Shown piece after piece: positions 9,720 through 23,529 of a stretch of DNA of 36,016 nt. The translations under genes and the position numbers were made by a program. Positions within the stretch are counted from its first letter, which is position 1, and each line of letters begins with the position of its first letter. Source of the stretch: Acidimicrobiaceae bacterium (GTDB taxonomy: Bacteria; Actinomycetota; Acidimicrobiia; Acidimicrobiales; Aldehydirespiratoraceae). The stretch spans positions 1-36,016 of the forward strand of contig JAPPLH010000119.1 in the NCBI GenBank assembly GCA_028819505.1, in the 5' to 3' direction. The notes beneath the pieces are model-generated. The model saw only the letters and a list, made by a program, of their open reading frames with translations, made no database searches and had not been told where the DNA came from.

Positions 9720-10496
9720 GTGAGCGAGTTCGTTCGAGTCGAGACCAGCAGCGGGGTGGCCACCATCCGCATCGACCGGCCCAAGATGAACGCCCTCAAC
9801 CCCCAAGTGCTCAGCGAGTTGACCGAGGCCGCCAACGCTGTCGGGGCCCACCGCGACGTACGGGCGGCCGTGATCTGGGGCGGGCCCCGGATCTTCGCGG
9901 CCGGCGCCGACATCGGCGGCTTCACCGGCCTCGCTCCGGCCGCGGCCCAGGCGCTGTCGCGCCAGTTCAACGACGCCTTCCTCGCGGTTGAGAACATGCC
10001 CCAGATCACGGTGGCGGCCGTGAACGGCTATGCGCTGGGCGGCGGCATGGAGCTGGCCATGGCCACCGAGTTCCGGGTGGCCGCCGACGACGCGGTGTTC
10101 GGCCAGCCCGAGATCAAGCTGGGCATCATCCCCGGCGGCGGGGGCACCCAACGCCTTCCCCGGCTCGTCGGCATCACCAGGGCCAAGGAGATCATCTACA
10201 CCGGCCGCAACGTGTACCCCGACGAGGCCCTCGCCGTCGGCCTCGTCTCTGCGGTGCATCCGGCCCAGGAGACCTACGACGCGGCCGTCGAGATGGCCGC
10301 GGGCTACGCGGCCGGACCCGCGGCGCTGCGCATGGCCAAGCAGGCGGTGATGGACGGCCTGCCCCTGTCGCTGGCCGACGCGGTGGCCCGCGAGACCGAG
10401 CACTTCGGCGAGTGCTTCAGCACCGACGACGCCACCATCGGTGTGGCCAGCTTCCTGGAGAAGGGCCCCGGCAAGGCGAACTTCACCGGCCGCTAG
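9720..10496 (+). CDS. enoyl-CoA hydratase/isomerase (crotonase family)
   Basis: This 258-residue crotonase would hydrate a trans-2-enoyl-CoA or isomerise a related CoA ester in beta-oxidation-like catabolism. The oxyanion-hole segments AGADI (61-65) and [11 protein letters not shown] (104-114) are intact. Both acid-base glutamates of true hydratases are present: Glu111 in GGGMEL and Glu131 in [17 protein letters not shown] follows. The length is typical. The start is the GTG at 9720, preceded by GAGGAG at a good distance. It is a single gene pointing at the ABC exporter operon and separated from it by a long hairpin. The chain-length preference is unknown. Confidence 0.93.
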
Positions 10497-10529
10497 CCAC
10501 CGGAGGGGTCAGAACCAAGGCCCTCTCCT

Positions 10530-10576
10530 GAATTGGCAGCACTATGCACGCACACCGTGCGTGACGCTGCCAATTC
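10530..10576. terminator. long two-part hairpin between convergent genes
   Basis: GAATTGGCAGC (10530-10540) pairs perfectly with GCTGCCAATTC (10566-10576). Inside, CACGCAC (10547-10553) pairs with GTGCGTG (10557-10563) over an ACC loop. The 18 base pairs lie in the 85-bp gap between the enoyl-CoA hydratase and the last exporter permease, so it most likely stops transcription from both sides. Confidence 0.7.
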
Positions 10577-10581
10577 CAGAA

Positions 10582-11370
10582 TCAGGCGACGTCGAGGCGG
10601 TTGAGCCTGACCGCGGCCAGGACCAGGCCGGCGACCGATACCGCGGCCAGAACCACGAGTGCAGTGGCGGTCGTGTAGTGGTCGAAGCCGTAGTCGATCC
10701 CGCCGAGGTGGCTCAGCACCGACCGTGTGTAGCCCCTGAGCGACAGGCGGGCTGCGAAGTCGCCCAGCCCGACGGCCAGGCCCTCCCACAGGAGCACGTA
10801 GCCGATGCCCCAGATGATCGGCTTCTTGAGGAGCAGCCCGAACAGCACGAACAGCGACGAGTAGGCGGCGGTGCCCAGGGCGGCCGCCACCGCGGCGGCC
10901 AGGGCCAGGTCAACGGACCCCGCGACCCCGTCGGCCGCCAGCCAGCCGCCCGCCGCGGTCGGGACCACCGTCAGGGGCAGCGCTGCCGTGGCCGCGGCGG
11001 CGGCCGCCCCGGCCACCACCGGGGCGCGGGCCATGGGGCGCAGCCAGAGGTAGACGAGGGTGCCGTCCTCGCGGGTCTCCCCCAGCACGGACGAGCCGAA
11101 CACCAGCGACACGATGGGCACGATGATGATCAGCCCGAAGCCGTCGGCGTAGCCGGCACCATCCCTCAGCAGCTCGGCCGCGCCCTGTCCCTCGTCGCCG
11201 GCGTTGAGGCCGACCAGCCAGCCGACCAGCATCATCAGCGCGCCCAGCGCCCCCAGCGCCACGATCCTCCCGGGGGTGAGGACCTGGCGGACCAGCACAC
11301 GGTAGGTAAGCGCCGCGGCCCGGAGGCCGGGCACGTGCCGGCGGCTTCGGGGCGGGTTCGTCGCAGTCAT
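10582..11370 (-). CDS. ABC-2 type exporter permease (second exporter)
   Basis: This is a 262-residue integral membrane protein with about six hydrophobic segments: IVALGALGALMMLVGWLVG, LIIIVPIVSLVFGSSVLG, an Ala-rich pair in the middle, AAYSSLFVLFGLLL, IIWGIGYVLLWEGL, and a C-terminal VVLAAVSVAGLVLAAV. GETREDGTLVYLWLRPM between the second and third is typical of ABC-2 permeases (short cytoplasmic coupling stretch). It should pair with the ATPase at 11542-12555. The ATG at 11370 (MTATNPP) is preferred over in-frame upstream starts because it lies in an ATGA overlap with a repeat-encoded micro-ORF and has GGGAGCGCGAGG just before it. The exported substrate is unknown. Confidence 0.85.
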   Translation of the reverse strand: MTATNPPRSRRHVPGLRAAALTYRVLVRQVLTPGRIVALGALGALMMLVGWLVGLNAGDEGQGAAELLRDGAGYADGFGLIIIVPIVSLVFGSSVLGETREDGTLVYLWLRPMARAPVVAGAAAAAATAALPLTVVPTAAGGWLAADGVAGSVDLALAAAVAAALGTAAYSSLFVLFGLLLKKPIIWGIGYVLLWEGLAVGLGDFAARLSLRGYTRSVLSHLGGIDYGFDHYTTATALVVLAAVSVAGLVLAAVRLNRLDVA

Positions 11371-11505
11371 CGCCTCGCGCTCCCGGAAGGGGACGGCTGA
11401 TGAGCCAACGCCCGATCCCGGAAGGGACACCGCTCAGTCATCGCCTCGCGCTCCCGGAAGGGGACGGCTGATGAGCCATCGCCCGATCCCGGAAGGGACA
11501 CCGCT
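11364..11505. repeat. 71-bp tandem duplication, 70/71 identical
   Basis: Copy 1 is 11364-11434 and copy 2 is 11435-11505. The only difference is at 11408 versus 11479, which changes an ATG to TTG on the minus strand. Each copy is built from two diverged units of about 35 bp starting with TCCCGGAAGG. Each copy also carries an ATGA plus the Shine-Dalgarno-like GGGAGCGCGAGG of the downstream permease start. Confidence 0.95.
11367..11441 (-). CDS. 24-residue micro-ORF in the repeat array, coupled to the permease
   Basis: It begins with MTERCPFRDRALAHQ and ends GSARR. Its ATG (11439-11441) overlaps the stop of the longer micro-ORF as ATGA, and its TGA (11367-11369) overlaps the permease ATG in the same way. 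It shares RCPFRDRA and HQPSPSGSARR with the preceding micro-ORF. It is hydrophilic and Arg-rich, with no known family. It may simply carry ribosomes to the permease. Expression is inferred only. Confidence 0.5.
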   Translation of the reverse strand: MTERCPFRDRALAHQPSPSGSARR

Positions 11506-11551
11506 TAGCCATCGCCCGATCCCGGAAGGCACACCGCTGAATCATCGCCTC
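11381..11551. repeat. five related units of 33-36 bp, each starting TCCCGGAAGG
   Basis: The core TCCCGGAAGG begins at 11381, 11416, 11452, 11487 and 11520, giving steps of 35, 36, 35 and 33. Units 1 and 3 are one subtype (followed by GGACGGCTGATGAGCC). Units 2, 4 and 5 are another (followed by G/C-ACACCGCT). The array fills the junction between the exporter ATPase and permease genes and overlaps the stop of the former. Confidence 0.9.
11438..11545 (-). CDS. 35-residue micro-ORF in the repeat array, coupled to the exporter ATPase
   Basis: It is made of peptide repeats: MIQRCAFRDRA, MAKRCPFRDRA, MAHQPSPSGSARR. The ATG (11543-11545) overlaps the TGA of the ATPase gene as ATGA, and its own TGA overlaps the next micro-ORF's ATG. 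The frame contains two further in-frame ATGs, one per repeat. There is no recognised domain. It could be a translational bridge or a small peptide; nothing here distinguishes these. Confidence 0.5.
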   Translation of the reverse strand: MIQRCAFRDRAMAKRCPFRDRAMAHQPSPSGSARR

Positions 11552-12555
11552 TCCACCAGGTAGCGGAACACCGACTCGAGGTCCTCGTCGAGGGGGACGA
11601 CCCGCGACAGGCGGGCCTCGAGGCGCTGCGCCAGCGGAGCGACCTCCCGTCCGAGACGGTCGACGTCGCGGGTGTCCACGACGAGGGAGTCCCGGCCGAC
11701 GCTGACTCCCACGGCCGTGCCCGACTCCACCAGGGCCGCCGCGAACTGCCGGGGCCGGTCCACGGCGATGCGGATGCGGTGGGGGCGGTCGTCCATGAGC
11801 TCGCGCAGCTCGCGGTAGTCGCCGGTGGCGGCCAGGCGTCCCTGGGCGATCAGGAGTATCCGGGAGCCGAGGCGGGCGACCTCCTCGAGGACGTGGCTCG
11901 ACACCAGCACGCACCGGCCCTCGTCGCCGAGGCCATGGAACAGCTCGATCATGCGGCGCCGCTGCACCGGGTCCAGCCCGGTGAGGGGCTCGTCGAGGAT
12001 CAGCACCTCGGGGTCGTGAACCAGCGCGGCGGCCAGCTTCACCCGCTGGCGCATGCCTTTGGAGAAGCCCGACACCCGCCTGGAGCCGTCGGAGTCGAGG
12101 CCCACCACTCCAAGGGCCCGCCGGGCGGCGGGCTCCGGCTCGGCCACCGCCTCGGTGGCCGCGGCCAGGGTCACGAACTCCCGCGCGCTGAGCCGGTCGA
12201 ACAGGCCGTCCTGCTGCGGCACGAGGCCGATGCGGCCCCGGACGTCGCGGTCGCGGCGGGCGTCGGCGCCCAGCACCCGGACGGTGCCCTTGGTGGGCGG
12301 GGTCAGCCCGCACATCACCCTGAACAGGGTGGACTTGCCGGCGCCGTTGGGCCCGAGCAGGGCGGTGACGCCGGCCCGGACCGAGAAGCTCACATCGGAC
12401 ACCGCCACGACGTCGCCGAACACCTTCGACACGCCGTTCACCTCGACCATGGCCGAACCGTCGGGCGGCGGGGGCGGAGGCGTCCCTCCGACCGGCGGTG
12501 CCGGCGGGGACACCGGAGGTCCCGGCGGCGGCGGAGTGGGCGGGCTGGTACTCAT
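11542..12555 (-). CDS. ABC transporter ATP-binding protein with Pro-rich N-terminus (second exporter)
   Basis: This 337-residue ATPase energises export by the ABC-2 permease downstream. It has Walker A GPNGAGKS at 68-75, Q-loop VPQQDGLF, signature VSGFSKGMRQRVKLA, Walker B LILDEPLTGLDP and the switch His in SSHVLEEV. The first 35 residues are almost only Pro, Gly, Ser and Thr, an unusual extension for this family. The conventional domain begins at Met36 (12450), which could be an alternative start. The ATG at 12555 is favoured by its ATGA overlap with the permease gene before it. Its TGA overlaps the first micro-ORF of the repeat array. The C-terminal 100 residues are a poorly conserved regulatory region. 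Confidence 0.9.
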   Translation of the reverse strand: MSTSPPTPPPPGPPVSPPAPPVGGTPPPPPPDGSAMVEVNGVSKVFGDVVAVSDVSFSVRAGVTALLGPNGAGKSTLFRVMCGLTPPTKGTVRVLGADARRDRDVRGRIGLVPQQDGLFDRLSAREFVTLAAATEAVAEPEPAARRALGVVGLDSDGSRRVSGFSKGMRQRVKLAAALVHDPEVLILDEPLTGLDPVQRRRMIELFHGLGDEGRCVLVSSHVLEEVARLGSRILLIAQGRLAATGDYRELRELMDDRPHRIRIAVDRPRQFAAALVESGTAVGVSVGRDSLVVDTRDVDRLGREVAPLAQRLEARLSRVVPLDEDLESVFRYLVERR

Positions 12556-13517
12556 CGGCTCAGCGCCAGTCGCCGGTAGCGCCACCACACCACGGCCGAG
12601 CCCAGGGCCACCCACGCGAAGTTGGCCGCCACCACGAACAGGGTGGACAGCTGTTCCCGTCCAGCCCCGGGCTGGAACACATCGTCTTCGGGGGACTCGG
12701 GCGCTCCAAAGGGATCCAGCCCCTCGACGCCGTAGATCCGGTTCTTGAGCTCGTCGGCGATCCCTCCGAGGTCGAAGGCGTAGACCTGCGCGCTCATGTC
12801 CGCGGCCTCCACCAGCGCCAGGGTCGTGAAGCCGCTGCCCCACAGCAGCACGACAACGCCGATGGTGGCGAAGAGCCGCCGGTCGGTGAGGCTGGCCGCG
12901 GCCAGGCTGGCCATGGTGAACGCCGCGGAGATGGCCGCACCGGCTGCGATGATGCGCACGAAGATCTTGATCCACTCGACGAGCCCGTCGGGCCCCGAAC
13001 CCTCGAGGGTGCGGGCCACCAGCAGGAACAGCACAGGCCCCATCGTCAACACGGCCAGCGCGGCCGCCACCGCCGCCGCCTTCGAAGCGAGATAGCTCCA
13101 CCGCTGCAGCGGGGTCGACAGGTACAGCTGGAGCATCCCGTTGCGGCGGTCGGCCACCAAGATGTCGGGCACGATGATGGCGCAGTAGAAGAACAGGGCG
13201 GTGGTGATGAAGCCGTAGTACTCGTGGTAGTCGGGCAGGATCTCGTCCTCGATCATGTCGATGTCGAGCACGACGGCCAGCCCCACGAACACCACCGCCG
13301 GTACCAGGGCGATGACCACCGCGAGCCACGGCAGGATCTTGTGCCGGGCCGCCCGGCCCAGCCCGAGGGTGTGGCGCACCGAGTAGCGCACCACCGAGCG
13401 GATCGATCCGGGCAGCCCGGTGCGGGGCCCTTCGTATGACCGGTATCCCCGGTCGATGATCTGAGCGGCCTCGGGGGCCGCAGCCGCATTGGAGTCCGGC
13501 ACCGGGGTGTCGCTCAT
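12552..13517 (-). CDS. ABC-2 type exporter permease (first exporter)
   Basis: This 321-residue membrane protein has a hydrophilic N-terminus of about 60 residues and then about six transmembrane segments: LPWLAVVIALVPAVVFVGLAVV, FITTALFFYCAIIVPDILV, an Ala-rich helix, FVRIIAAGAAISAAFTMASL, LFATIGVVVLLWGSGF, and a C-terminal FVVAANFAWVALGSAVVWW. DRRNGMLQLYLSTPLQR after the second segment is the typical ABC-2 coupling motif. ATGA overlaps join it to the ATPases on both sides. It probably works with the ATPase at 13514-14437. The substrate is unknown. Confidence 0.88.
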   Translation of the reverse strand: MSDTPVPDSNAAAAPEAAQIIDRGYRSYEGPRTGLPGSIRSVVRYSVRHTLGLGRAARHKILPWLAVVIALVPAVVFVGLAVVLDIDMIEDEILPDYHEYYGFITTALFFYCAIIVPDILVADRRNGMLQLYLSTPLQRWSYLASKAAAVAAALAVLTMGPVLFLLVARTLEGSGPDGLVEWIKIFVRIIAAGAAISAAFTMASLAAASLTDRRLFATIGVVVLLWGSGFTTLALVEAADMSAQVYAFDLGGIADELKNRIYGVEGLDPFGAPESPEDDVFQPGAGREQLSTLFVVAANFAWVALGSAVVWWRYRRLALSR

Positions 13518-14437
13518 CGGGCGGCGTCCTCGAAGAGGTCCTCGAGCGTGCGGCGCCGGGTCTCGAGGCGGCGGATTCGGGCTCCGGCGGCGGCCACCGC
13601 GTCGCGGGACCGGTCACAGAGATCCTCGAAGGCCGCGCCCCGCAGCGCCAGCGTGGCCTCGTGGCGGCGAACGTCGAGGCCGCCGGCCCGCAGCGCGGCC
13701 TCCACGGCGTCGACCGATCCGGCGGGCTCGGCCACATCCACCAGCTCGAGGGTGATGCCGTCGCCCGCGCCGACGAGGTCGCTGATGGGCCCGCAGGCCA
13801 CCAGGCGGCCGGCGTCCAGGGCCACGATGTTGTCGCACACCCGCTCGACCTCTTCGAGCTGGTGCGACGACAGCACCACGCTGATCGAGAAGTCCCGGCT
13901 GATCTGGCCGATGAGGGCCAGCATCTCGCTGCGCTGCACCGGGTCGAGCCCGTCGGTGGGCTCGTCGAGCAGCACCAGCTTGGGATCAGAGGCGATGGCC
14001 TGGGCCAGCTTCACCCGCTGGCGCTGGCCGGTGGACATGGTGCCCAGCGTCCGGAGGCGCTCCTCCCCCAGCCCGACCAGCCACAGCGTGTCGGAGGCGC
14101 GGTTGCGGGCCTCGCCGCGGGGCAGGCCCTGCACCTCGGCCAAGTGGCGGACGAAGTCGACGGCCCGCATCTCGTCGGGCAGCACGTTGCGCTCGGGCGC
14201 GAACCCCACGTTGGCCCTGAGCCGGTGGCCCGCCCTCTGCGGATCGTAGCCCAGCACGGTGAGCGAACCCGACGTCGGGATGCGCAGGCCCAGCATGGCG
14301 TTGAGCAGGGTGGTCTTGCCCGCGCCGTTGGCGCCCACCAGCCCGGTCACGCCGGGCTGCATCCGGAGGTCGAGAGCGTCGAGCGCCACAGTGGAGCCGA
14401 ACCGCTGCGTCAGCGCTTGCGTCTCCACGATGCTCAC
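13514..14437 (-). CDS. ABC transporter ATP-binding protein (first exporter)
   Basis: This 307-residue ATPase has Walker A GANGAGKT at 35-42, signature MSTGQRQRVKLA, Walker B LVLLDEPTDGLDP and switch SSHQLEEVERV, with a C-terminal domain of about 90 residues. The GTG at 14437 gives the normal family N-terminus (MSIVETQALTQRFG). In-frame GTGs at 14506 and 14512 would add a low-complexity extension and have no Shine-Dalgarno. A TATGAT lies 6 nt before this GTG, which suits a leaderless message. It is the first gene of a minus-strand operon of two ATPase-permease pairs, joined throughout by ATGA overlaps. Confidence 0.88.
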   Translation of the reverse strand: MSIVETQALTQRFGSTVALDALDLRMQPGVTGLVGANGAGKTTLLNAMLGLRIPTSGSLTVLGYDPQRAGHRLRANVGFAPERNVLPDEMRAVDFVRHLAEVQGLPRGEARNRASDTLWLVGLGEERLRTLGTMSTGQRQRVKLAQAIASDPKLVLLDEPTDGLDPVQRSEMLALIGQISRDFSISVVLSSHQLEEVERVCDNIVALDAGRLVACGPISDLVGAGDGITLELVDVAEPAGSVDAVEAALRAGGLDVRRHEATLALRGAAFEDLCDRSRDAVAAAGARIRRLETRRRTLEDLFEDAAR

Positions 14438-14443
14438 CCGCGG

Positions 14444-14449
14444 ATCATA
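14444..14449 (-). promoter_or_regulatory. -10 element of the ABC exporter operon, leaderless arrangement
   Basis: TATGAT on the minus strand ends 6 nt before the GTG at 14437, which places the transcription start on the start codon. The -35 region is weak by eye. There is no Shine-Dalgarno in this gap. Confidence 0.45.
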
Positions 14450-14610
14450 CGGCCACCCCGCTCCATTGATGCCCGCGGCCTGCGGCTGCGGGGCCGGCTC
14501 GTTCACTGGCACACCGTGCCCACCGGTCTGTCGGCGGCCAATCGGGGATGACCCTGAACTCCCCCCAGCACCGATTCCGCCTCGGGGTGAGCGACACAGT
14601 CATGTTGTGG

Positions 14611-14958
14611 TCAGAGACCCAGATGCAGCCTTATGGCGTCGTCGATGCGGTCCATGAGATCCAGCGGGACGAGACCCGTCGCTTCGCCTACTCGCTCGAC
14701 TGCGACCGATCTGATCTGCTCCGCCTGGACCTTGGAATCCAATCGCAGGCCGCTCTCGGTGGCGGCCAAGAGCACCTGGAACGGATGGACCACTTCCGTG
14801 TTGGACGTCGCCGGAACCACAGTCACGACCCCGCGCCCTAGCAGTGCTGCGATCGTGTTGGCACCGTCGTTGCTCACGATGACGGCCGGGCGATTGCGAG
14901 CGGCCTCAGCGCCCGCCGCGGGATCAAGGTCAACGAAGCGGATCTCTCCCCTTCGCAT
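14611..14958 (-). CDS. MazF/PemK-family toxin (endoribonuclease)
   Basis: This 115-residue PemK/MazF fold protein starts MRRGEIRFVDLDP and has the conserved NRPAVIVSND segment, VTVVPATSN and, late, VQAEQIRSV, as in MazF toxins. The family cuts mRNA, usually at short single-stranded motifs. The ATG (14956-14958) overlaps the TGA of the antitoxin gene as ATGA, the usual antitoxin-first order. The length is normal and no truncation is seen. The cleavage motif cannot be predicted. Confidence 0.88.
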   Translation of the reverse strand: MRRGEIRFVDLDPAAGAEAARNRPAVIVSNDGANTIAALLGRGVVTVVPATSNTEVVHPFQVLLAATESGLRLDSKVQAEQIRSVAVERVGEATGLVPLDLMDRIDDAIRLHLGL

Positions 14959-15182
14959 CAGTCCTCACCCAGACCGTCACCGACGACCGTGTCCCAGACC
15001 TTGTCCTCGCCGTCTTGGACCCATTCGGCAAAGGCGTCCGCGTAGTGATGCGAAAGCTCGGAGGCTCGCAGGAGCCGTATGGCCCGGTGCAGAGCGGCCG
15101 ACCGCGAGGCGATGCCGTGGCATCGCGCGTAGTCGTCCAGAAACTCGACATCGCTCTCGGGAATGCTGACGCTGACCTTCAT
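14958..15182 (-). CDS. ribbon-helix-helix antitoxin, MazE-like partner
   Basis: The 74-residue protein opens with MKVSVSIPESDVEFLDDYA, the ribbon-helix-helix pattern of a DNA-binding strand then helix, followed by SRSAALHRAIRLLR. The acidic C-terminus (DGEDKVWDT...) would wrap the toxin. ATG at 15182 is preferred to an upstream in-frame TTG at 15200. TAGTAT lies 7 nt ahead of it, suggesting a leaderless mRNA. It is expected to repress its own operon through the inverted repeat just upstream. Confidence 0.85.
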   Translation of the reverse strand: MKVSVSIPESDVEFLDDYARCHGIASRSAALHRAIRLLRASELSHHYADAFAEWVQDGEDKVWDTVVGDGLGED

Positions 15183-16016: not shown

Positions 16017-16559
16017 TCACCACTGCGGGAGCAATCCTTGCTCATGCGCCCATGAGAACAGGCTCCGTCCATCGGTCGGTAGCCGCATGCCCGTCGCCCG
16101 AAGTTCATCGACCAATTGTTCAGCCGCCGAACGCCTCAGTTCGCCGCGTCGGACTCCCTGGACGACGAGCCATAGTGAGCCGTGGGCCATGATGCCGTCC
16201 CGTTGTGCTATGCGGCTCGCAGCGCGTTCGTCGATGATCGCCACGTCCCCATGGACGCCCGCCCACGCCAGTACGGCTGCCTCACCGGTGTTCTCCCTCG
16301 AACCGCCGCCCAGCAGCGTCTTGTAGCGAGCGAAGGCGGAGAGCTCGTGTGTCTCCGAGAGTTCAACCGACTCCAGCCAGTCCGCGGTCAGTACGTCGGC
16401 GAGGGCCGGTATCGCCGCAGTGCCGGCACGAATCTCGATTCGCACTTCCACTGGCGCAATGCAGCGAAACGGATCGACGAGCGACTCGAGTGCCGGCAGC
16501 CTTCCGGCGCAGGCGAAATGGCTCAAACATGTAGTGTCGAAGATCAGCGATGGACTCAC
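16017..16559 (-). CDS. PIN-like domain protein, likely toxin or effector partner
   Basis: This 180-residue protein begins LIFDTTCLSHFA, a typical PIN strand with Asp8. It also has Glu93 in TGEAAVLAWA and Asp110 in AIIDERAAS, spaced as in the acidic metal-binding site of PIN ribonucleases. The GTG start (16557-16559) overlaps the TGA of the XRE-ImmA gene as GTGA, so the two are one unit. Pairing of an XRE-COG2856 protein with a PIN-like protein fits predicted toxin-antitoxin pairs. RNase activity is inferred from the fold only. Confidence 0.75.
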   Translation of the reverse strand: MSPSLIFDTTCLSHFACAGRLPALESLVDPFRCIAPVEVRIEIRAGTAAIPALADVLTADWLESVELSETHELSAFARYKTLLGGGSRENTGEAAVLAWAGVHGDVAIIDERAASRIAQRDGIMAHGSLWLVVQGVRRGELRRSAAEQLVDELRATGMRLPTDGRSLFSWAHEQGLLPQW

Positions 16560-17644
16560 GCGAGCGGCTCGAACTCGCGCCTCCATGCTTCGAGCGGCAC
16601 CTCGTCCTGTGCGGGGAGCTCCCAACGATCGACGGTGCCCCACAGGAGTTCCACGGCGCGCGCTTCGGTGAGCTTCCCACGCCGATAAGCCGCGAGAACC
16701 CGTCTCCCGTAGAGCGGCGGCACGCTAGGCGGGACGAGTTCGGCAACCCAGCGCTCCCCCAACTCGATGAAGTCCGCCCGAGAGGGCGGGTGACTTGCGA
16801 GATCCTCGCGAGTCCCGGCATCGATGACGCCGACGTTCCGCAGTTGGGAGCATACGGCGGTCCAACTCAGCCGATAGCGCACCGCTGCCGCAACCGCCGC
16901 GAGACGGAGATCACGCTCGAACTCTGACCTGATCACTTCTGCGTCACGCCGGGGCAGAAGCAGATGGATCGCGAAAGCATTGATCAGCATCTCGTTCTCA
17001 TCCTGCGGAGAGAGCCCGACCTCCGGCGCGTACGCGTCCTGGAACACATGATGACCGAGTTCGTGAGCGAGATTAAAGCGGCGCCTCCCTGGCTCGAGCG
17101 CACCGTTGATGACTGCCACACCGACATCACCGACCGCCACATACGCGGCATCGCCACCACCCTCGCTGAGGTCGAGGGAGAACGCGAACAGGCCTGCTAG
17201 CTCAGCGCATCGTTGGAGGCCATGGAGAGGTCCGGCCGGCACCCCGAGCTTGACCCGCAACTCCGCAGCGGCTGCCTCGGACTCCTCGACGCTCGACGGA
17301 GGATCCATCACAATCCTCGTGATCTGTGGGAGTTCACCCTCGGCAGACAGAAAGTCGATGTCGCGAGCGATCCACTCAACCCGCGAGTCCAGCATCCGCG
17401 ACCGTCCTCCTACGACTGGATCTGACCGCCGACTCAAGACCGCTGGAGGGGATGCTCGGAAGAACCAGTCCACAGGCCGGTCGAGTGCTTCGGCGAACAC
17501 CACGAGTTCGGCCGCGGCGAGCCTCCTGGTTCCTGCCTCAATCTTCGCGATCACCGTCCGTCCGAGCCCCGTCGCCGCGGACACCTGCTCCTGTGTCAGC
17601 CCTGCGAGCTCGCGCGCCTCTGCGATCCGGCTGCTCAGCTCCAT
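16556..17644 (-). CDS. XRE-family regulator fused to ImmA/IrrE metallopeptidase
   Basis: This 362-residue protein has an N-terminal helix-turn-helix (RIAEARELAGLTQEQVSAAT, then GRTVIAKIEAG, residues 6-39) and a COG2856 zinc peptidase site, FNLAHELGHH, with HELGHH at 194-199. NEMLINAFAIHLLLPR follows and contributes the usual third-ligand Glu. Such proteins bind their own promoter and may be triggered to cleave a repressor or antitoxin. The gene is coupled by GTGA to the PIN-like gene, suggesting a stress-responsive or toxin-antitoxin unit. ATG at 17644 gives the normal N-terminus; TACAGT (17653-17658) lies 8 nt upstream as a possible -10. Confidence 0.87.
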   Translation of the reverse strand: MELSSRIAEARELAGLTQEQVSAATGLGRTVIAKIEAGTRRLAAAELVVFAEALDRPVDWFFRASPPAVLSRRSDPVVGGRSRMLDSRVEWIARDIDFLSAEGELPQITRIVMDPPSSVEESEAAAAELRVKLGVPAGPLHGLQRCAELAGLFAFSLDLSEGGGDAAYVAVGDVGVAVINGALEPGRRRFNLAHELGHHVFQDAYAPEVGLSPQDENEMLINAFAIHLLLPRRDAEVIRSEFERDLRLAAVAAAVRYRLSWTAVCSQLRNVGVIDAGTREDLASHPPSRADFIELGERWVAELVPPSVPPLYGRRVLAAYRRGKLTEARAVELLWGTVDRWELPAQDEVPLEAWRREFEPLA

Positions 17645-22457: not shown

Positions 22458-23453
22458 GTGATGGACTTCCGCTTCGACCACGTCGGTTTCCTGACCCCCG
22501 ACGTGGACTACAGCTTCGGCGTGTACCGGGCGCTGGGCTGCCAGTTGACCGAGCGGACCTACCGCCGGGGCAGCCACGACGTGGCCTACGGCGGAGCCGG
22601 GACCGACGTGCTGCTCGAGTTCCAGGGCCCGCCGCTGCTGCGCGAGTCCGAGGACTACCTGGCCCGCCAGCCTTGGAGCATCGAGCGGGTGGCGCTGGTG
22701 TGCGATGACGTGGAGGCGGCCTACGCCCGGCTCATGGCGGCCGGCGTGCCGTCGGCCTGGGAGCCGGAGCCGTTCGCGGTCGACGGGGTGACCCTGGCCG
22801 TGGCCGCGGGAGTGTGGTCGCCCGAGGGACTCATGATCGATCTGGTCGAGCACCGCGACGTGGCCGTTCCCCGGCCCGCCCGGGGCCCCCGGGACGACTT
22901 GTCCCTGCATCATGTGTGCTTCGTCACCTCGGATCTGGCCCGGGCCGAGGCGTTCTGGGTCGAGCACTTCGGGCTGGTCAAGACCTACGACTTCACCGCG
23001 CCGCTACCTGGCGGCGGCAGGCAGGGGTTCGTGATGCTCAGCGACCCGTTCTTCGACGCGGCCGGCCACGAGTTCAGCCTGGAGATCATCGGCGGCGCCT
23101 TCGACACCATCGACGGGCCGGTGTTCGAGCGGCGGGGCAGCTGCTACGACCACATCTGCTTCACGACCGGCGACGTGGCCGGGACCTGGCAGCGGGCCGT
23201 CGATCGGGGCGTGGAGCCGCTGAGCGAGCCGGCCTACTATCCCGAGTACGACAGCACCATCGCCTGGCTCTACGACGCCGACGGCACCCATATCGAGCTG
23301 ATGGACCCGGTGCCGGCCGATCTGATGGTCGACGCCCACCGCCTCGGCCGGTGCGCCAACGGCTGGGTGGACGACTGGCAGCGCAATCCGGCCGTGCTCC
23401 CTCGCCGGGGAGACACCGGTCTGCAGGTCCGCCGCAACCCCAGCAACCAATGA
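22458..23453 (+). CDS. two-domain VOC-superfamily protein (extradiol dioxygenase-like)
   Basis: This 331-residue protein has an N-terminal VOC module (FDHVGFLTPD) that has lost some ligands. The C-terminal module has a full His-His-Glu set: His151/152 (LHHVCFVTSD), His232 (YDHICFTTGD) and Glu280 (THIELMDP). This is the classical arrangement of extradiol ring-cleavage dioxygenases and 4-hydroxyphenylpyruvate dioxygenase relatives, and it mirrors the VOC gene at 19905. A non-haem Fe(II) or Mn(II) dioxygenase is plausible. Either GTG 22458 or ATG 22461 could start it; Shine-Dalgarno is weak. The TGA overlaps an ATG (23450-23453) that opens the micro-ORF chain leading to the alcohol dehydrogenase. 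Confidence 0.82.
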   Translation: MMDFRFDHVGFLTPDVDYSFGVYRALGCQLTERTYRRGSHDVAYGGAGTDVLLEFQGPPLLRESEDYLARQPWSIERVALVCDDVEAAYARLMAAGVPSAWEPEPFAVDGVTLAVAAGVWSPEGLMIDLVEHRDVAVPRPARGPRDDLSLHHVCFVTSDLARAEAFWVEHFGLVKTYDFTAPLPGGGRQGFVMLSDPFFDAAGHEFSLEIIGGAFDTIDGPVFERRGSCYDHICFTTGDVAGTWQRAVDRGVEPLSEPAYYPEYDSTIAWLYDADGTHIELMDPVPADLMVDAHRLGRCANGWVDDWQRNPAVLPRRGDTGLQVRRNPSNQ

Positions 23454-23488
23454 CCGCCGGCAGGCCGCAGACTGGAGGAGGCCGATGA
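23450..23488 (+). CDS. 12-residue micro-ORF coupled to the VOC gene
   Basis: It reads MTAGRPQTGGGR. Its ATG forms an ATGA with the VOC stop, and its TGA (23486-23488) forms an ATGA with the next micro-ORF's ATG at 23485. The strong GGAGGAGG near its end would serve as Shine-Dalgarno for that next frame. It is related to the following micro-ORF by tandem duplication. Confidence 0.4.
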   Translation: MTAGRPQTGGGR

Positions 23489-23520
23489 CTGCCCGCAAGC
23501 CACCGACCGAAGGAGGCCAT
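23451..23520 (+). repeat. degenerate 35-bp tandem duplication carrying ATGA and Shine-Dalgarno
   Basis: Units 23451-23485 and 23486-23520 match at 26 of 35 positions. Each begins TGAC, has GCC-GC-A in the first third and ends in GGAGGCC. Each therefore repeats a stop/start overlap plus a Shine-Dalgarno, and the duplication has kept all junctions in ATGA register. Confidence 0.75.
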
Positions 23521-23529
23521 CGCACATGA
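23485..23529 (+). CDS. 14-residue micro-ORF coupled to the alcohol dehydrogenase
   Basis: It reads MTARKPPTEGGHRT. GGAGGAGG lies just upstream. Its TGA (23527-23529) overlaps the alcohol dehydrogenase ATG as ATGA, and AAGGAGG within it is that gene's Shine-Dalgarno. The peptide resembles the preceding one (MTA, then a shared R/K-P and T-x-G-G pattern). It may be only a translational bridge. Confidence 0.45.
   Translation: MTARKPPTEGGHRT

Follow-up and report, generated by a model that had tools for sequence, protein, structure and literature searches.

An ABC transporter operon in an Acidimicrobiaceae genome raises the question of whether a chain of micro-ORFs, joined to each other and to both neighbouring genes by ATGA stop/start overlaps, passes ribosomes from an ATPase gene on to its permease gene, or whether such a chain is simply what tandem duplication leaves behind at a gene joint. 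We addressed this question in a stretch of 36,016 nt (contig JAPPLH010000119.1 of assembly GCA_028819505.1), here called the window, and at gene joints of related genomes. We lean towards the former view, in which the array would be a ribosome relay that was born by tandem duplication, with contact-breaking spacers being partly removed by selection for coupling.

The ATPase-permease joint

The window contains a minus-strand ABC operon of four genes (Table 1), which were predicted along with their starts by a purpose-made codon-usage gene finder. Joints 1 and 2 of this operon are direct contacts. The ATPase upstream of the third joint matched Pfam ABC_tran (8.7e-32) and had drrA as its top NCBIfam match (2.9e-60, under the drrA cut-off); the downstream permease matched Pfam ABC2_membrane_4 (2.0e-4, under the gathering score). 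Directly past the permease gene, at window positions 10530-10576, a palindrome-like interspersed element of ~47 bp (GAATTGGCAGC ... GCTGCCAATTC) was noticed by eye. Resemblances to it were seen, likewise by eye, in L188, L214 and L223, and in L188 (genome G010) two copies of the element lie within a 155-nt ATGA relay.

Table 1. Features of the window and forms of the ATPase-permease joint in the genus
Feature	Position	Strand	Details
First ATPase-permease pair of the operon	12552..14512	-	ATPase 14512-13514, permease 13517-12552; inner joint and joint to second ATPase direct ATGA (-4)
ABC ATPase, DrrA-like, ABC_tran (upstream gene)	11542..12555	-	stop TGA 11544-11542 within ATGA 11545
Micro-ORF 1	11438..11545	-	35 aa, MIQRCAFRDRAMAKRCPFRDRAMAHQPSPSGSARR; two in-frame 33-bp units and one 38-bp-type unit (33+33+38 = 104 nt up to next ATGA)
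Micro-ORF 2	11367..11441	-	24 aa, MTERCPFRDRALAHQPSPSGSARR; 33+38 = 71 nt up to next ATGA
71-bp unit, two copies	11505-11435 and 11434-11364	-	70/71 identical; one ATGA stop/start contact per copy
ABC-2-type permease (downstream gene)	10582..11370	-	262 aa; start at 11370
Micro-ORF MTAGRPQTGGGR	23450..23488	+	12 aa; start overlaps stop of glyoxalase-domain gene (22458-23453)
Micro-ORF MTARKPPTEGGHRT	23485..23529	+	14 aa; stop overlaps start (23526) of zinc-type alcohol dehydrogenase gene
Joint in genus: direct ATGA			G013, G001, G009, G011, G007
Joint in genus: one 38-nt link			G015, G006, G010, G008, G014; peptides MTHQPSLSGIEKR-like
Joint in genus: one 71-nt link			G004
Joint in genus: two 74-nt links			G003
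Joint in genus: links of 104+71 nt			source genome
Joint in genus: spacer ORF overshoots permease start			G002
Joint in genus: no ATGA, CTGA stop			G005, G012

The third joint extends over 171 nt from the ATPase stop to the permease start and is bridged by two micro-ORFs. All details that the original prediction gave for it were reproduced, i.e. ATGA at 11545, 11441 and 11370, a pair of micro-ORFs (35 and 24 aa), a 71-bp duplication with 70 of 71 positions identical, and a mismatch changing ATG to TTG. These three ATGA sites are the sole ones on the minus strand within 11350-11560, and each is preceded by a GAGGCG-type purine stretch. The single mismatch between the 71-bp copies (11479 A / 11408 T on the minus strand) affects an in-frame codon. 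TRF described the array as 71 bp x 2.2 with 96% matches and a score of 285, the top of 25 rows for the window, and a 33-bp period underlies the 71-bp repeat. The assembly is a draft, 94% complete, in which the copy number of an array of such length may be collapsed or miscounted. When the bases of the spacer were shuffled, an intact chain resulted in 1612 of 20000 trials (8%). Re-initiation coupling is the natural reading of this joint.

Searches of the 3.73-Mb assembly (167 contigs) with a 23-base pattern at up to 3 mismatches and with a 115-nt query revealed the unit nowhere else. The genome-wide TCCCGGAAGG arrays at gene junctions for which the original prediction had proposed a search did not turn up either; the arrays that we looked at consist of different units. 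The missing copies also bear on the idea that the array acts as an RNA or DNA element, i.e. a structured mRNA, a terminator or promoter array or a set of protein-binding sites, in which the ORFs would be incidental. A CCCTTCCGGGA-type motif is indeed repeated in the array. Against such an element, the fold energy is ordinary for the composition (z -0.25), the window has no Rfam match, and we found neither a promoter- or terminator-like site in 10300-15000 nor inverted repeats of at least 12 nt in 11200-11700. We therefore regard this explanation as very improbable.

The joint in related genomes

Permease matches were obtained in 93 of 149 related genomes, 16 of which, including the source genome, belong to the genus. 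Within the genus, the joint is a direct ATGA in 5 genomes, relayed in 8, register-broken in one and without ATGA in 2 (Table 1). Outside the genus, in G108, G148, G018 and G030, the ATPase reads straight into the permease. Of the nine genus genomes that carry a spacer, eight have an intact chain (38 to 175 nt, one or two micro-ORFs), and the intact spacers comprise at least three different sequences. By eye, the 38-type module of the window matches that of the five one-link genomes, while the sequences of G004 and G003 differ. The codon positions of the 38-nt micro-ORF have 1, 2 and 3 variable columns of 14 among five sequences, which are too few to judge.

The exception is G002. Its insert resembles, by eye, that of G004, and is one base shorter between the ATGA sites, so that the register is broken. 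A relative with a frame-breaking spacer at this very joint had been named in the original prediction as a result that would speak against selected re-initiation, and this one congener is such a case. The loss of register in G002 counts against strict selection.

The number of links is 0, 1 or 2 among the congeners, and the 70/71 identity of the window's 71-bp copies suggests a recent duplication. Both observations would fit a copy-number tuner, in which ribosomes are lost at each re-initiation, the permease:ATPase ratio follows from the number of links and slippage makes the locus phase- or dose-variable. The number differs between species without a known phenotype, and we consider a tuner unlikely; that link number might adjust the permease:ATPase ratio is speculation from the sequence.

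In most of the relatives with a 38-nt link, a direct repeat of GAGAAGCGATGACT flanks the insert on both sides. Such repeats could be a target-site duplication, as expected if a dispersed mobile element of the type of the mycobacterial interspersed repetitive units (MIRUs), with which the joint shares its geometry, had inserted at the ATGA and had then been amplified. The flanking repeats fit a tandem duplication equally well, and against an origin from a mobile element speak the searches of the assembly, in which no further copy was found, and the mostly unrelated units at different joints. We give this origin very little credence.

A second chain at the glyoxalase-ADH joint

The window holds a second two-link chain at 23450-23529 on the plus strand, with the order ATGA-MTAGRPQTGGGR-ATGA-MTARKPPTEGGHRT-ATGA, built as an imperfect 35-bp tandem copy. 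The second of its micro-ORFs has orthologues in 8 other genomes, each exactly 45 nt long. Among 14 close orthologous loci, the 45-nt micro-ORF contacts both neighbours in nine, the upstream neighbour in the source genome being the first micro-ORF; at four loci, including two in G006, the genes meet directly at -4 instead, and in G001 a longer spacer contains an ORF that stops 2 nt short of the start. This count leaves aside three of the 16 genus genomes (G004, G005 and G012), which gave distant matches only and no close orthologue. The upstream contact is ATGA in four cases and TGATG in five, so that the upstream stop lies 3 nt apart between the two groups without loss of the contact.

The nine 45-nt sequences, eight of them distinct (those of G015 and G007 are identical), vary in 26 of 45 columns. 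By codon position, 9, 10 and 7 of 15 columns are variable, and the conserved peptide expected of a functional small-protein gene is not seen. The unvarying stretches include ATG, AAGGAG and ATGA. Preservation of the 45-nt length and of the contacts, but not of the peptide, is the pattern expected of a relay that carries within it the ribosome-binding site of the following gene. For comparison, among 55 orthologous pairs of relay-free spacers of 20-150 nt, 42 are unequal in length; these pairs were drawn from four genomes only, and predicted starts add noise to the count. For a selective filter, this conserved micro-ORF of 45 nt provides the strongest single argument.

A further interspersed repeat, GCGGCCCGTGAGCGAAGCGAACAAGAGCGGGAAA-like and partly tandem, was observed in L160 (17866-18055), in L212 (6816-6901) and in L116 upstream of the alcohol dehydrogenase gene. 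It also sits in the longer spacer of G001 at this joint.

Tandem arrays and further chains

We surveyed 716 kb of the source genome and 400 kb each of three congeners (G009, G010, G011) and of one member of the same family (G022). Non-coding or stop-spanning tandem arrays numbered 68 in 0.714 Mb of the source genome and 10, 17, 12 and 11 per 0.4 Mb in G009, G010, G011 and G022, respectively. Compared to the three congeners (39 arrays in 1.2 Mb), 68 arrays in 0.71 Mb amount to an approximately three-fold excess (p 6e-8). Sampling of the source genome was not random, as stretches on contigs C17, C21, C35, C36, C98 and C102 were picked for the hits of one earlier search and stretches on C15, C80 and C91 for those of another. 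The excess persists in each of the two batches, after removal of the window, and on contigs not picked through the former search (32 arrays in 0.31 Mb, p 2e-6), which indicates that short tandem duplications are generated or retained in unusually large numbers by this species. Seven array units were compared in 21 pairs, and only the pair of the window's 71-bp unit and the 35-bp unit of the ADH joint beat all 60 shuffles, a weak similarity.

Further chains were seen at other joints of the source genome. At the joint between ilvB and ilvN (L160 8868-8985; also L141-L143), a 35-bp unit stands three times in tandem and forms a 12-aa micro-ORF each time, MTGSDSPRRLQR occurring twice and MTGSDSPRRSQR once, so that four ATGA follow in series. 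This array, on C98, was already visible before C98 was picked, and no close orthologue of the chain was found in the sampled congener stretches. In L166 (7219-7366), six micro-ORFs of 6-12 aa with a spacing of 17 and 35 nt lie between two co-directional genes. Some chain members are real small genes that the gene finder had missed; an 80-residue ORF in one chain looks, by eye, like a biotinyl/lipoyl domain.

GC-rich arrays with 75- and 35-bp units (CGGCAGTCCCCGGATCGGGCCGGTGCGCTGACGGC) were seen in L165 at 12442-12808, the first of them spanning a predicted gene end. At L161 ~16435-16673 and L217 ~1293, N runs lie in or beside tandem arrays at gene joints. Such runs, be they assembly gaps or masked sequence, make array copy numbers in this draft genome uncertain.

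The excess of non-coding arrays would also be expected if the chains were a neutral by-product. Short tandem duplications between genes would then accumulate, about a third of those in which an ATGA contact is copied would chain automatically, and the micro-ORFs would have no role. The permease would be initiated independently from its own ribosome-binding site, for which the purine stretch before each ATGA could serve. We regard this as a genuine possibility, though short of a probable one, and the tests of the reading register described below bear on it from both sides.

Possible selection on the reading register

When 193 direct -4 junctions were duplicated in simulation with units of 14-75 nt, the chain was kept or relayed in 25129 of 35898 cases (70%). 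It was kept in 93%, 15% and 99% of cases with unit lengths of 0, 1 and 2 mod 3, respectively, and a relay made up 56% of the non-direct outcomes. Tandem duplication thus readily yields ATGA chains, as the neutral explanation supposes, and one preserved array is weak evidence for selection. Unit length itself was dropped as a test for selection. Lengths of 1 mod 3 are rare near (A/G)TGA stops. They make up 6 of the 42 arrays situated in short co-directional gaps, and convergent or divergent gaps within the genus have about as few (4 of 29 arrays); this period bias outside co-directional gaps again agrees with a neutral origin.

To compare chains with a control, non-direct junctions after an (A/G)TGA stop were set against junctions at which CTGA or TTGA was followed as a pseudo-start; pairs with an overlap of >60 nt, with N near the junction or too near the end of a stretch were left out. 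In the source genome, relay chains were found at 27 of 58 junctions as compared to 20 of 90 in the control (Fisher p 0.0035), and chains of at least two links at 11 of 58 compared to 3 of 90 (p 0.0027). The three congeners yielded relay chains at 26 of 68 versus 35 of 163 junctions (p 0.013) and no excess of multi-link chains (1/68 versus 8/163); in G022, of the same family, relay chains occurred at 8 of 24 versus 18 of 80 (p 0.29). If only ORFs of up to 60 aa were admitted, the contrast was stronger both in the source genome (26 versus 13, p 0.0001) and in the congeners (25 versus 26, p 0.0009). Since pseudo-start controls chain at ~22% of non-direct junctions, the raw figure of 18 in 177 co-directional pairs from a first sample of the source genome was not used.

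The excess in the full samples argues against a purely neutral origin. However, the genome-wide chain excess is fragile. Without the window and L160, relay chains in the source genome stood at 22/53 versus 20/87 (p 0.024), and chains of at least two links at 6 versus 3 (p 0.08). The second batch of source stretches alone gave 11/26 versus 9/33 (p 0.27). No excess was observed in the source genome when ATGA-only chains were compared to CTGA-only chains (6/25 versus 16/81, p 0.78); the same comparison in the congeners gave 11/35 versus 24/151 (p 0.05).

Orthologous junctions were compared as well. Out of 177 families, 54 contained a direct contact, and 23 non-direct orthologues divided into 12 relayed and 11 broken junctions. 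In this comparison the ADH joint of G011 was scored as broken only because the stretch ends there; the locus comparison shows it to be intact. When the orthologues of direct junctions were restricted to those lacking any possible start up to +12 nt, 11 were relayed and 3 broken; the list was read by eye, and rows with the nearest start below +12 (1 relay, 8 broken) had been set aside by hand. A share of 11 in 14 differs from the rate given by duplication alone (56%) with p 0.08 and from the pseudo-start rate (22%) with p 1e-5. The rows share ancestry, and without the two window joints, which supply 3 of the 11 relayed rows, the split is 8 relayed to 3 broken.

Taken together, the tests support moderately, but not strongly, the view that mutation drives the arrays and that a selective filter acts on them. 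In favour of the original claim that the register is under selection for re-initiation are the contact that congeners keep across several different spacers and the direct ATGA at the other two joints of the operon; the broken frame of G002, the ease with which simulated duplication retains chains and the fragile excess weaken it, and all three suit a neutral by-product. The neutral explanation has more difficulty with the ADH joint, where the length of 45 nt and both contacts are kept in nine loci despite divergence of the sequence, and with the frequent length differences among spacers that have no relay.

Discussion

In the reading we favour, that of a relay born by duplication and filtered by selection for coupling, the ancestral joint would have been a direct ATGA, judged from the distribution within the genus rather than from a tree. 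On the same grounds, a 38-nt spacer may have arisen in this lineage and grown by in-frame 33-bp units, after which a 71-bp duplication would have copied one ATGA contact. New spacers would stem from short tandem duplications, of which this species carries many, and spacers breaking the contact would partly be removed by selection. Ribosomes leaving the ATPase would pass by re-initiation to micro-ORF 1, from there to micro-ORF 2 and finally to the permease, and this serial re-initiation would allow coupling to survive a distance that otherwise breaks it. We infer from the sequence that the micro-ORFs are translated, in series; their peptides themselves probably do nothing.

A physical reason for a filter on spacers is given by the distance limit of coupling. 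According to PMC10666635, coupling was extremely distance-dependent in six native gene pairs, and in E. coli +38 nt nearly abolished it; PMC6728339 describes strict coupling for 13 of 14 tested pairs with -4/-1 contacts. The 38-nt insertion corresponds to +34 nt at our joint, and hence the permease is expected to be uncoupled unless the micro-ORF carries the ribosome across.

If this holds true, ribosome relays that are born locally and evolve rapidly would exist, including relays for the subunits of one complex. Where genes of an operon overlap, the joint could then absorb insertions of tens or even hundreds of bases with coupling retained, and tolerance of insertions would need no MIRU-type mobile element. 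Working relays would also offer a natural series of 0, 1, 2, 3 and 6 links for measuring the loss of ribosomes per re-initiation step, and they would be a warning for annotation, as short ORFs wedged between genes can be relays and not small proteins. The wider proposition that operon joints of this genus grow by tandem duplication, that coupling is kept by self-renewing, peptide-independent micro-ORF chains and that link number determines how much of one neighbouring gene product is made relative to the other appears doubtful to us as a whole.

Among known systems, MIRUs come closest; they are said to have been described by Supply and co-workers in 1997. A 2025 review (PMC12548453) has MIRUs appearing to insert at start codons, their ORF being coupled at -4, with a likely minimal impact on the gene, and a 2015 review (PMC4473831) characterises them by small ORFs that overlap, at both ends, the ORFs next to them. 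By these descriptions, the joints described here share with MIRUs short repeated units between co-directional genes and a small ORF that overlaps its neighbours in the same orientation at -4. In the array of the window, the ends of the micro-ORFs overlap contiguous ORFs of the same orientation at all three ATGA contacts, and dyad symmetry is absent, as seen from the lack of inverted repeats in 11200-11700 and the fold z of -0.25. In contrast to MIRUs, which form a dispersed and apparently mobile family, the unit of the window gave no further copy in the searches of 3.73 Mb, and the units of arrays at different joints are mostly unlike, which tandem duplication of the joint explains. Because no dispersed copies were found, the array is not counted as a MIRU.

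The stop/start overlap at each of the three contacts also resembles -4/-1 termination-reinitiation. Gene contacts by ATGA and TGATG often join subunits of one complex (Huber et al. 2019, 2023; PMC10666635), and the candidate relay joints found here likewise connect genes of an ABC-2 transporter and of acetolactate synthase. The known case is a direct contact of two genes, whereas here one to six micro-ORFs are interposed. The short ORFs of uORF systems and bicistronic designs lie upstream of a gene and are initiated de novo. They have in common with our micro-ORFs that the only task proposed for the short ORF is delivery of the ribosome to the next start (PMC12548453). In contrast, the micro-ORFs at our joints would receive their ribosomes from a full gene, and in series. 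Ordinary VNTRs are not known to require any relation to stop or start codons. Intergenic VNTRs and minisatellites are similar in being tandem arrays with units of 15-100 bp (PMC4473831). In the open-access literature searched, outside which most subscription papers lie, we met no description of locally duplicated ATGA micro-ORF chains, and MIRUs were the sole near precedent. The chains are thus best described as MIRU-like candidate relays of local origin, which seem to arise locally and repeatedly.
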